DNA of 40,702 bases from Fibrobacter intestinalis (lineage in GTDB: Bacteria > Fibrobacterota > Fibrobacteria > Fibrobacterales > Fibrobacteraceae), in assembly GCF_900167415.1 (NCBI RefSeq), contig NZ_FUWU01000027.1:1-40702 (forward strand), given 5' to 3'. This document shows positions 11,035-14,982 of the stretch, one piece after another; the first letter of the stretch is position 1; every line of letters starts with the position of its first letter. The notes under the pieces were generated by a model. That model was given only the letters and a program-made list of their open reading frames with translations. It had not been told where the DNA came from and searched no databases. The position numbers were made by a program, and so were the translations under genes.

Positions 11035-11985
11035 TTAGATGTTCAATTCGTTCATCATCATTTCGTAGAACTTTCGATACATATCCTTTTCCGGTCCCTT
11101 GCGGAAATCGATCGCCGAAGACGGATGCAAGTTCAAAGAACCCGTAATCATTTGCGGAATGATATAGCCCCATTCGTATTTCTGGCGAAGCGGCACAAAC
11201 AATTCCGTAATCGCATCCAATACGGGACGCACATCGTATTTGGGATTCTTTAAGAAACTCAAAAGAAGTTCCGTTGTGCAGTTTCCCGCGCCGCGACCCA
11301 TTCCCGTTACCGTGCAATCCAGATAATCCACATGATTGATAATCGCCTGAATCGTATTGCCGAAAGCGAGCTGCTGGTTGTTATGCCCGTGGAATCCGAA
11401 CTTTTTCGTTTTTACGTGTTCCCGGTAGCGTTTCACGGACTGGTCAATGTCTTCCTGATAGAAATGTCCAAAGGAGTCCACCAGATAAAGGACGTCCGCC
11501 TTGCACTCGTTTTCCACCTGGTCAAGCGCTTCATCGAGTTCCGGACCGCGATCGCGACTGACAGCCATAATATTCAAGGTCGTTTCATAGCCCATATCAT
11601 GGAAGGTGTTCACCAAGTCGATGCCCTTGTCGATATTCTTCACGTAGCTCGCCACGCGGAACATCTGGTATGGAGATTCGGAAGCGGGTTTGATCGCTTT
11701 CAAATTGACACGGCCGACATCCGCCATCACGGCAAATTTCACAGAGCTTTCAATGCCGTCGCGCACTTTCCAAAGCAAATCGTCATCGCAGAACTTCCAC
11801 GGACCGTAATCTTTCGGGTCAAAAAGATCGGGAGAATTTTTGTAGCCCATTTCCATGTAGTCCACGCCGGCAACGGTCAAAAGCTGATAAAGGCGACGGA
11901 CAAATTCCAAACTGAAATCGTGCTTGTTTACAAGGCCACCATCACGGATGGTGCAATCGAGAACTTTAATAGAAGGATAGTACAT
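11035..11985 (-). CDS. HMGL-like (DRE-TIM) aldolase family protein
   Basis: 316 residues from ATG 11985, which has AAAGGAA about 6 bases upstream; the longer start at 12006 has no ribosome site. Motifs of the DRE-TIM metallolyase fold are present: KVLDCTIRDGG at the N-terminus (metal and catalytic residues) and FGFHGHNNQQLAFGNT, with the HxH metal ligands, near residue 200. VTGMGRGAGNCTTE is the conserved Gly-rich and Asn-containing loop. Relatives include 4-hydroxy-2-oxovalerate aldolase, HMG-CoA lyase and isopropylmalate synthase. The closest pattern is the aldolase branch, but the substrate is unknown. A terminator follows directly. Confidence 0.8.
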   Translation of the reverse strand: MYYPSIKVLDCTIRDGGLVNKHDFSLEFVRRLYQLLTVAGVDYMEMGYKNSPDLFDPKDYGPWKFCDDDLLWKVRDGIESSVKFAVMADVGRVNLKAIKPASESPYQMFRVASYVKNIDKGIDLVNTFHDMGYETTLNIMAVSRDRGPELDEALDQVENECKADVLYLVDSFGHFYQEDIDQSVKRYREHVKTKKFGFHGHNNQQLAFGNTIQAIINHVDYLDCTVTGMGRGAGNCTTELLLSFLKNPKYDVRPVLDAITELFVPLRQKYEWGYIIPQMITGSLNLHPSSAIDFRKGPEKDMYRKFYEMMMNELNI

Positions 11986-12006
11986 TTGAATTCCTTTTCC
12001 CGCCAT

Positions 12007-12381
12007 GCGGGATTTCTATGACAACGGAAAGATAAATCGCTTTTGGGCAAAATCCAATAGGTGATTCAAAGATTTTCCAAAATTCTTTATTTTATACGCA
12101 ATTTGTGCGTAGAATGACTAAATATTTCAAATTTTATTAAAATTTAGCCAATCTTGTTTTTTTGCAAAAAAACAATTCAGACATTCAGAAGAGCTTCAAC
12201 AGCTTTTCCTCTCACTATTTTCAAAAGAAATTTTATTTAGTCAATGTTTTATATTTGTTTTCAACGCAAAATTTGCGTTGAAAATACACAAACAACCGAT
12301 GCTACTCTAGGTAAATAGTTTTAAATTTAAACGGAAAGTTGACAACAACTTTAGCCATCCCAGCTAGAAAGGAAGCCCTCC
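12007..12381. promoter_or_regulatory. AT-rich divergent regulatory region with two related palindromes
   Basis: 375 bases without a gene between the divergent aldolase and lipoprotein genes. Two inverted repeats share an ACGCAA...TTGCGT core: TACGCA/TGCGTA at 12095-12111, and a long perfect one at 12258-12284 with 13-bp arms TTTTCAACGCAAA and TTTGCGTTGAAAA around one A. A TATATT at 12250-12255 could be a -10 box whose start point falls inside the second palindrome, so it would act as an operator or as a 5' stem-loop of the lipoprotein mRNA. Confidence 0.5.
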
Positions 12382-13971
12382 ATGAAAGCGACAAAATTTT
12401 GCAAGCAAGCGGCTATTCTCCTCTCCATTTTCGCCCTGAACGCCTGTTTCGACAGCGGCTCCGCAACAGGAAACGTTCCTGCGGATTCCGATACAGCGAT
12501 GGAATGTACAGCTAAAAAAATAGAGGGAGGCTCCGATTTTGAATTTATCTGCAACGGAACGGTCGTAGGCTCCATCGGGAATCTTGCGGAAAGCTCCTGC
12601 AAGTTCGAGGAACTCGGCGACAGTACAGGCTATGAAATCATCTGCGGAAGCGATACGCTCGGCACTTTCTATGGTTCGCTTGCGGACACGATTCCCACAA
12701 CCGATTCGACGACGGCGAATCCCGCCAAATGCTCGGAAGGGGATCTTTTCCTACAGGCAACCACCGCAAAAAAATACGTCTGTTTCCATGAAACGTGGAA
12801 AGCGGCGGACTCGCTGGATGTCCTCACCATTTGGGCATACGACACCTACGGAATTGCTTGCAACGATTCGAACAAGGGGGAAATTATCCAAGGAAAAATC
12901 TCCGGGCTGGACAAGGTTTGCAAATCGAGCGGTTGGGCAAGCCCCAATCAAGCGGATTACGCGATGGAAGGTCAAAAATGCACTGCGGAAAACGAGGGAA
13001 AAATAGAGGAGAGTAAAATTTCCGAAGAATATTACAAATGCGAGAACGGTTCCTGGATTCAATCTTACAGACTGGACTACGATACGCAAGATAAAACATG
13101 CGACGAATCGAACGAGGGCGAAATAATCGAAGTAAATCACTACAAATCTTGCGTTCACTATATCACTTCGACAAATTACTACAAATGCAGCCAAAACAAT
13201 TGGCAATATTTGTCTTTGCTAGAAAGGGACATCTACGAGGGAATGATCTGCGATTCTTCGAACATCGGGAAAATGGAAATTGGCCCTTACAGCAACATCG
13301 CCTATGTATGCCAGAAAAACGGATGGGAAGAACTCGTTTCCGAAATGTCCTGGTACGGCAACGCCAGTGAATTCCGAGTAAAGACGGAATACAACCAGTA
13401 CAGTGAAAACGCTGGTGGATGGTTCGTGTACTCGGACAGCTCTCTCGGAGGAAATTCAAGAATCAAATGGCCGGTGGAAACCGGGAACGAATACGATGAC
13501 AAGGCTCTGGATCCGGTTATCGAGCATTGCAATGGTCTTTGCGGCGAATTCGTTCTGGGCGACTCTTTGCATTTTAACGACAGCAGCTATCAAAAACCTT
13601 TCATCGGCGTCGGATTCAACGTCACGGACAGCGATACCGTCGGCGGGGATATTACCGGTTGGGGCGGAATCAGCATCGCCTACAGCGGTCCGGCAGCAAT
13701 CATTGAATTAGTCCCTGAAAATGAAAAAAACTATCTGGAAAGCGACAACTATTTTGCAAATATCCCCCGTCAGGGCAGCATAAACGCCATAAAAATTTCT
13801 TGGAACGATTTTAACTCTTGGGCGAGCCTTGATAGTCAAACAGAAGTTCCCCTGAACGAATTTTTGAAAAAAGTCGTCGCCATCAGAATCTACACACAAC
13901 TCGAACCGGGATCCATCGAATCTTTCAAAATCATGGCCATCGGCTCCTACAACACACCGGTTTATTATTAG
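12382..13971 (+). CDS. Large lipoprotein with Cys-containing repeats and a CBM-like C-terminal domain
   Basis: 529 residues. Signal peptide with lipobox (IFALNAC at about residue 22), AAAGGA upstream of the ATG. The middle (about 120-320) is made of four or five degenerate repeats of roughly 40-50 residues, each with a pattern like CxxxNxGxI... then a Tyr-x-Cys and a Gly/Asn-Trp pair (for example KCENGSWIQ, VCQKNGWEE). The last 190 residues form a beta-rich domain (GGWFVYSDSSLGGNSRIKWP, GVGFNV, ISIAYSG, IRIYTQLEPGSIESFKIMAIG) resembling galactose-binding or CBM11-like jelly rolls. A cell-surface role in binding carbohydrate is inferred. The gene ends 18 bases before the Fic-like gene. Confidence 0.7.
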   Translation: MKATKFCKQAAILLSIFALNACFDSGSATGNVPADSDTAMECTAKKIEGGSDFEFICNGTVVGSIGNLAESSCKFEELGDSTGYEIICGSDTLGTFYGSLADTIPTTDSTTANPAKCSEGDLFLQATTAKKYVCFHETWKAADSLDVLTIWAYDTYGIACNDSNKGEIIQGKISGLDKVCKSSGWASPNQADYAMEGQKCTAENEGKIEESKISEEYYKCENGSWIQSYRLDYDTQDKTCDESNEGEIIEVNHYKSCVHYITSTNYYKCSQNNWQYLSLLERDIYEGMICDSSNIGKMEIGPYSNIAYVCQKNGWEELVSEMSWYGNASEFRVKTEYNQYSENAGGWFVYSDSSLGGNSRIKWPVETGNEYDDKALDPVIEHCNGLCGEFVLGDSLHFNDSSYQKPFIGVGFNVTDSDTVGGDITGWGGISIAYSGPAAIIELVPENEKNYLESDNYFANIPRQGSINAIKISWNDFNSWASLDSQTEVPLNEFLKKVVAIRIYTQLEPGSIESFKIMAIGSYNTPVYY

Positions 13972-13989: not shown

Positions 13990-14982
13990 ATGCTCTATAT
14001 TTACCAATATCCCGATTGGACAAAATTCCGTTACAAGCAAAAGGTAACCACTTCGCTTGGGCGCGTCCGGATGGCACAAGGTTATTTGACGGGAATCGCT
14101 TCCCTGGCTCTGGACAAGTGCGACGCAGAGGAATGTTCCCGCAGGGATTTGGCGGCATCCTTCGAAGCGGAATCGGCAGAACTTTCAAAAAAAGCTTTCG
14201 ATACCTTCATGGGGGCTTCCCGGAATTTTCAAAAAGAAATCTCCGAAGAAAACCTGCTCGAATGGCACGCAGCCTGCATAAAAGGCGGCGGGCATTTTAG
14301 GACTTCTGAAAGCGCGGAACCCGGAGTGGAACCGGAGCGCATCGCAAAGGAAATTTCCCTTTTTCTGAAATTTTTCAATGCGGCAGAAATGGACTATGTA
14401 TTAAAAGCGGCCATCGCGCATTTCTGGTTTCTCACCATCTGCCCTTTTGAAAAAGGGAACAAAGCTATTGCCGGACTTCTTTCCGACATCCAACTTTCCC
14501 GTAGCGAAAATTCGCACAATCGGTTTTACTCCCTGTTTTCCGAACTATTGAAAAATCCTGCGGATTATGCCGAAAAACTTTTAAAAGTTCAGCAAGGGGA
14601 CGGGGAAATTACAGAATGGCTTTTGTGGTTCATCGAAAAATTAAATGCCGCTATAGAGTGCGCCACCAATCATTTTTCGCCACAATTTTCAGAGGCGGCA
14701 ATGTCGCTATCCATTGAAGGAATTGCTCTTTCCGACCGTAAAATGCGCCTCTTGAAAATTTTGCGCCAAGACAACGGTTTCCTGCAAAACTCTTCTGTGG
14801 AAATTTCCTCATCGGAATGGGCAAAACTATCCGGCATTTCGCACGATTCCGCCTTACGCGATTTGATGGACCTCGTTGAAAAAGGAATCCTCAAAAAAAC
14901 AAAGGCAAAAGGCCGCAGCACCAGATATCGGCTGGTCGGTATTTCTAGCCAAGATGAAAAAAAGGAATTTATATACAAATGA
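13990..14982 (+). CDS. Degenerate Fic/DUF4172 protein with C-terminal winged helix
   Basis: 330 residues. The N-terminus LYIYQYPDWTKFRYK is the DUF4172 signature that precedes Fic domains. The Fic core region AHFWFLTICPFEKGNKAIAG aligns with the canonical HPFxxGNGRxxR active site, but the catalytic His is Cys151, the GNGR is GNKA and the final Arg is Gly162. AMP transfer should therefore be lost. The surrounding fold is well kept (for example RFYSLFSELLKNPADYAEKL). The C-terminus (about 240-320, KLSGISHDSALRDLMDLVEKG) is a winged helix-turn-helix of the kind found in Fic-HTH proteins. It probably acts as a DNA-binding or regulatory protein. It is likely in one operon with the lipoprotein 18 bases upstream. 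Confidence 0.82.
   Translation: MLYIYQYPDWTKFRYKQKVTTSLGRVRMAQGYLTGIASLALDKCDAEECSRRDLAASFEAESAELSKKAFDTFMGASRNFQKEISEENLLEWHAACIKGGGHFRTSESAEPGVEPERIAKEISLFLKFFNAAEMDYVLKAAIAHFWFLTICPFEKGNKAIAGLLSDIQLSRSENSHNRFYSLFSELLKNPADYAEKLLKVQQGDGEITEWLLWFIEKLNAAIECATNHFSPQFSEAAMSLSIEGIALSDRKMRLLKILRQDNGFLQNSSVEISSSEWAKLSGISHDSALRDLMDLVEKGILKKTKAKGRSTRYRLVGISSQDEKKEFIYK

Follow-up and report, generated by a model that had tools for sequence, protein, structure and literature searches.

A family-wide lineage of Fic-fold proteins with a degenerate active site in Fibrobacteraceae, a probable regulator of its own gene and of an aldolase-like gene

Fic proteins with a helix-turn-helix (HTH) domain that regulate their own genes are already known. 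CccR of Yersinia pseudotuberculosis, a secreted effector that AMPylates FtsZ and has retained the catalytic His, combines a Fic domain with a C-terminal HTH and acts as an autorepressor on inverted repeats in its promoter (operator AGATAATCAT-N26-ATGATAATCT), a repression that needs the dimer (PMC9755527). CbFic2 of Coxiella burnetii (PDB 8cil), with the domain order DUF4172-Fic-winged HTH (wHTH), dimerises via DUF4172 and binds DNA with the wHTH, and is an active (de)AMPylase with intact HPFDDGNGRIGR and TSAIEG motifs, for which a specific operator is not reported (PMC10628234). BepC of Bartonella keeps the catalytic His and has no wHTH, but its Fic motif is non-canonical, with Lys at the D/E position; enzymatic activity was not found for it, and it works in host cells by binding a partner (PMC8401265). 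The stretch PFxxGN is strictly conserved in the Bartonella Fic domains and is taken to fix the shape of the loop (PMC8401265).

The window studied here is a stretch of 40,702 nucleotides from Fibrobacter intestinalis, and it encodes a protein of this kind, hereafter pseudo-Fic, in a reading frame that is open over its whole length (Table 1). Pfam matches above the cut-off were obtained for Fic (PF02661, E=5e-8) and for DUF4172 (E=9e-6), and CbFic2 was the best match in both sequence and fold: 8cil aligns to residues 115-324 (E=3e-31), covering the Fic domain and the winged helix, and is the top Foldseek match (E=4e-12) of an AlphaFold model that was built from five input sequences, reached a pLDDT of only 66 and served for fold identity only. 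The domain order of CbFic2 is present in pseudo-Fic, with the wHTH assigned from alignment and fold, its Pfam match being below the cut-off.

Table 1. Features of the pseudo-Fic locus, in coordinates of the window.
Feature	Position	Strand	Remarks
Aldolase-like gene (HMGL-like), proposed target	11035..11985	-	Pfam PF00682; nearest PDB 3dxi; upstream start at 12006 possible
-7 promoter-box-like TATCTTTC of aldolase gene	12027..12034	-	69 bp from operator 1 centre; consensus match only
Operator 1 (putative), ACGCAATTTGTGCGT	12096..12110	.	Proximal to aldolase promoter; conserved before aldolase genes family-wide
-7 promoter-box-like TATATTTG	12250..12257	+	Directly before operator 2; consensus match only
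Operator 2 (putative), ACGCAAAATTTGCGT	12264..12278	.	Within 27-bp perfect palindrome 12258-12284; aldolase-distal, promoter-proximal for lipoprotein-fic
Lipoprotein gene	12382..13971	+	Between operator 2 and fic in window genome only; passenger, not conserved part
Pseudo-Fic regulator gene (putative)	13990..14982	+	330 aa; DUF4172-Fic-winged helix
DUF4172, N-terminal part (residues 3-39)	13996..14106	+	Pfam PF13776; corresponding part of CbFic2 contains dimer helix (PMC10628234)
Inhibitory-helix motif remnant S57-F-E-A-E61-S62	14158..14175	+	Alignment; class II motif is SxxxEG
Degenerate Fic motif CPFEKGNKAIAG (residues 151-162)	14440..14475	+	Translation and alignment
Winged helix (residues about 247-316)	14728..14937	+	Alignment to 8cil, fold search; Pfam wHTH match below cut-off
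Recognition helix SHDSALRD (residues 284-291)	14839..14862	+	His285 invariant in dead clade; helix predicted from alignment and fold

By translation, the Fic motif of pseudo-Fic reads C151-P-F-E-K155-G-N-K158-A159-I-A-G162, in such a way that five chemical positions of the canonical HPFx[D/E]GNGRxxR are replaced: the catalytic His by Cys, the D/E by Lys, the second Gly by Lys, the first Arg (R1) by Ala and the second Arg (R2) by Gly. Only PFxxGN is left of the frame of the Fic loop. The initial annotation had described the replacement of the active-site positions, which the translation confirms, and the change of D/E to Lys is an addition to it. The Lys at this position is shared with BepC, whereas the catalytic His that BepC, CccR and CbFic2 all keep is absent. 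Doc-type Fic kinases carry the motif HxFx[D/E]GNKRxxR; pseudo-Fic has the GNK of this motif without the His, R1 or R2. Its SFEAES does not match the class II inhibitory motif [S/T]xxxE[G/N] either.

Of 111 genomes of the family, 93 gave a fic-like match, counting active paralogues, and 72 Fibrobacteraceae relatives form one branch in the tree of aligned proteins. None of these 72 has His at residue 151, where Arg is found in 69, Ser in two (L091 and L097) and Cys in the window protein alone. A search for the motif ICPFEKGNK in homologues, as the initial annotation had suggested, finds the motif only in the window; the feature common to the clade is that the His is missing. In the alignment, the inhibitory Glu is changed to Asp in 70 of the 72 members, R2 is kept in 70 and R1 in 53. 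The Arg at the His position is spelled by six codons (CGC 40, CGT 8, CGG 8, AGG 7, CGA 5, AGA 1), so that it is apparently the Arg itself that is kept, and the position appears to be under conservation. The window codon for Cys151, TGC, is one step from CGC, the commonest Arg codon of the relatives; the nearest relative, L041 (67% identical), has the Arg codon CGA there, shares GNK.IAG with the window protein and, like it, lacks R2. Because 69 of the 72 members carry Arg, and TGC in the window stands against CGC in most relatives, we infer that the immediate ancestor of the window protein carried Arg, not His, at residue 151. A protein of genus g5 (L063), with an intact-His motif (HPFPKGNGRLAR) and the same aldolase-fic-metY gene order, branches just outside the dead clade, which gives the change a polarity from active to dead, although L063 forms a long branch in a quickly built tree, so that its exact placement is less sure. 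According to the sequences, the catalytic machinery was lost at an early stage in the evolution of the Fibrobacteraceae, a family of gut bacteria.

An enzyme of altered chemistry, in which Arg (or Cys) in place of His would serve a different transfer reaction, in the way that AvrB and Doc deviate from AMPylation, would agree with the conservation of that Arg and with the retention of R1 and R2 in most of the clade. We consider it unlikely, since R2 is gone in both the window protein and L041, and the window protein, left without the His or any anion-binding Arg, keeps its DNA-binding features.

The initial annotation had pointed to the 12.0-12.38 kb region as a place for DNA binding, and this region carries two exact ACGCA-N5-TGCGT palindromes, both in the intergenic region between the aldolase-like and lipoprotein genes. 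Of the 72 pseudo-fic genes, 39 have a site with at most one mismatch (25 exact) in the 300 bp before them, versus 0.5% of shuffles; by the same measure the other 33 have no recognisable site at their own promoter, which speaks against the role proposed below. Most sites lie 33-37 bp ahead of the start codon, and they occur in several chromosomal settings, also where fic has been relocated. An inverted repeat at the own promoter, the mark of CccR- and CbFic2-type regulators, is found in the window (operator 2 before lipoprotein-fic) and in these 39 genes. The CccR-type operator with its 26-bp spacer was discarded, as it is not the form seen at these loci, and the mismatch with the N5 spacer counts against the explanation that we favour below. 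Active Fic-wHTH genes, including some from outside the family, have CGCA-N4/5-TGCG before the start codon at 16 of 28 loci versus 0.07% of shuffles; with such related sites before the genes of active members, autoregulation appears to predate the loss of catalysis.

In the whole 3.29-Mb genome of the window there is one more exact copy, ACGCAAATTTTGCGT, at L143:5780-5794 (G000:C63:57779-57793), upstream of a peptide-type ABC transporter permease-like gene, a possible further target. A large regulon was rejected: each of the g1, g6 and g11 genomes searched holds 2-9 exact copies, and when the copies at fic and at the aldolase gene are subtracted, most of these genomes come near the control counts.

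The proposed target is an HMGL-like gene; its product comes closest to 3dxi and to the 4-hydroxy-2-oxovalerate aldolases, with scores well below the cut-offs of those families. The 450 bp upstream of the aldolase starts were scanned for sites with at most one mismatch, and the positions of these sites and of the -7 boxes refer to a point 3 nt upstream of the ATG. At least one site was detected at 5/5 loci in g1, 2/2 in g11 and 67/69 in g6 (74/76 together), and 64 loci have two; in seven genera without pseudo-Fic a site was detected at 1 of 18 loci, and the sites at the one g5 locus are all degenerate, with two mismatches each. The genomes are related, so the locus counts are not independent, and the genera with pseudo-Fic may simply be close kin; both points count against the favoured explanation. 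The order aldolase-fic-metY is common to g1, g11 and g5; in g6, fic has been relocated to several different places, and yet the aldolase gene still has the exact site pair in front of it. A few g6 genomes (G052, G077; 82-88% complete) have the aldolase sites, and fic was not found in them, which also counts against that explanation. A comparison of the fic loci by synteny gave no neighbour conserved across the whole family, and metY was rejected as a target, as outside g1, g11 and g5 it adjoins neither fic nor the operators. In one g6 subclade (L168, L174, L176, L186 and relatives) the aldolase operators mostly have one mismatch each and fic has no recognisable operator; the regulator of this subclade may be drifting in specificity. 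Apart from this, a Cas9-like ORF (1382 aa, LGLDLGTNSIGWAV) was seen near the aldolase locus in G067, at L146:7856-12004.

The two aldolase sites are spaced 126-129, 146-150, 159-161, 168-171, 179-181 or 201 bp apart. The best period of these spacings is 10.5-10.6 bp (R=0.88, or 0.76 on the 19 distinct values), and none of 20,000 random sets was as phased; multiples of this period are what is predicted for operators that lie on the same face of the helix and form a loop. Looping regulators of the lac or gal type have two operators, at distances that change by whole helical turns, and the phased aldolase pair resembles theirs; the protein fold is unrelated, so the likeness is one of working only. 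In 51 of 57 loci, the centre of the proximal operator and a TAnnTTTG-like -7 box are 69-70 bp apart, whereas anything from 28 to more than 100 nt separates this box from the start of the aldolase gene. The fixed distance suggests that the regulator bound at the proximal operator contacts the transcription machinery, and the geometry would fit either upstream activation or repression by a loop.

The predicted recognition helix (SHD[ST]ALR) has His285 in all 72 dead proteins. Active relatives with His at this residue also have ACGCA, and those with other residues have mostly CCGCA, in such a way that the outer base is A in 72 sites and C in 2 with His285, and A in 4 and C in 22 with other residues (Fisher p=5e-16, with kinship ignored and the active loci G008:C68 and G014:C152 each listed twice). 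This covariation ties ACGCA-N5-TGCGT to the Fic protein itself and, as indirect support for binding, is the best evidence that pseudo-Fic would read the sites. The sites could instead belong to another regulator shared among the same genera, whose related genomes could give the co-distribution by common descent. To this we assign a low probability, because relocated fic genes are also preceded by sites, related sites stand before active Fic-wHTH genes of other lineages, and the outer base covaries with residue 285. A separate active subgroup (L250-L254), with a recognition helix of the SQPTAIR type, has AGATTA-N6-TAATCT-like palindromes upstream and not CGCA-N4/5-TGCG.

A maximum likelihood codon model gave dN/dS values of 0.089 (g1 and g11), 0.096 (window, L041 and L040) and 0.101 (a g6 subclade), with 0.066 for the active relatives; the pairwise NG86 value for the window and L041 was dropped, its dS being saturated. 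Simple decay of an active Fic enzyme gene in the window strain, which the loss of five motif positions, more than in most relatives, could suggest, is very improbable, given that the His is absent in the whole clade, that dN/dS is about 0.1 with the window included and that the frame is open throughout. Intact motifs in sister strains together with relaxed selection, which the initial annotation had taken as the signs of decay, were not found. Its proposal of a maintained non-enzymatic role, perhaps as an HTH regulator, is strongly supported by the family-wide loss of the His, the dN/dS values, the putative operators and the covariation. The other part of that proposal, a ligand-sensing protein acting with the lipoprotein, did not stand and is hardly plausible: the 18-bp gap on the same strand was confirmed and the two genes are probably co-transcribed in the window genome, but no other fic locus examined, in g1, g11 and g5 included, has the lipoprotein upstream, and its C-terminal domain (residues 322-525, about 200 aa, with no match in Pfam or NCBIfam) belongs to a large paralogous Fibrobacter family with many unlinked copies across g1, g6 and g11 (up to 13 scored per genome), so that synteny and copy number rule it out as a conserved partner.

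From the motif loss, the single clade, the constraint, the operators with their co-distribution, phasing and fixed promoter distance, and the residue-base covariation, all observed in silico, we consider it highly likely that pseudo-Fic is a pseudoenzyme of Fic fold acting as a transcription factor, having kept its DNA-binding half. DNA binding is very probably its retained function, and it very probably controls its own gene and the aldolase gene via the paired sites. The ancestor would have been a DUF4172-Fic-winged-helix protein, at once an enzyme of the AMP-transferase type and an autoregulator on CGCA-N4/5-TGCG. In the ancestor of these Fibrobacteraceae, with the change of the catalytic His to Arg and of the inhibitory Glu to Asp, the enzyme half would have been lost and the DNA-binding half retained. 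Pseudo-Fic, presumably as a dimer, would bind ACGCA-N5-TGCGT; the single site at the fic promoter would give autoregulation, probably repression, which is the predicted likeness to CccR and which in the window would act at operator 2, directly after the TATATTTG box. At the aldolase gene, two dimers on one face of the helix would be brought together by looping of the DNA and would govern transcription at a constant distance from the promoter, and such a metabolic target, together with the dead motif, would set pseudo-Fic apart from CccR. As both sites of the window lie between the aldolase and lipoprotein-fic genes, the lipoprotein would be co-regulated as a passenger. The old active-site pocket may sense a ligand. 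A fuller version, which we put forward tentatively and hold to be somewhat less probable than not, is that a Fic enzyme has turned into a ligand-sensing, DNA-looping factor, whose Arg-for-His pocket would bind an anionic aldolase-pathway metabolite and switch the loop formed at the promoter of the aldolase gene, the window pocket having been re-tuned again (Cys, Lys, Ala, Gly).

We found no literature on Fic together with Fibrobacter, and the literature searched describes no dead Fic lineage that spans a family, has a metabolic target and carries paired operators in helical phase. With this lineage come a specific putative operator, the prediction of a DNA loop and a candidate rule that links a residue of the recognition helix to a base, as well as a warning against annotating the dead-clade genes as adenylyltransferases. 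The lineage would represent a natural, family-wide experiment in which a Fic protein without catalysis keeps its DNA-binding half, with a metabolic target acquired or kept, and it supports separable regulatory and enzymatic roles of Fic-HTH proteins, so far claimed for CccR by mutation.
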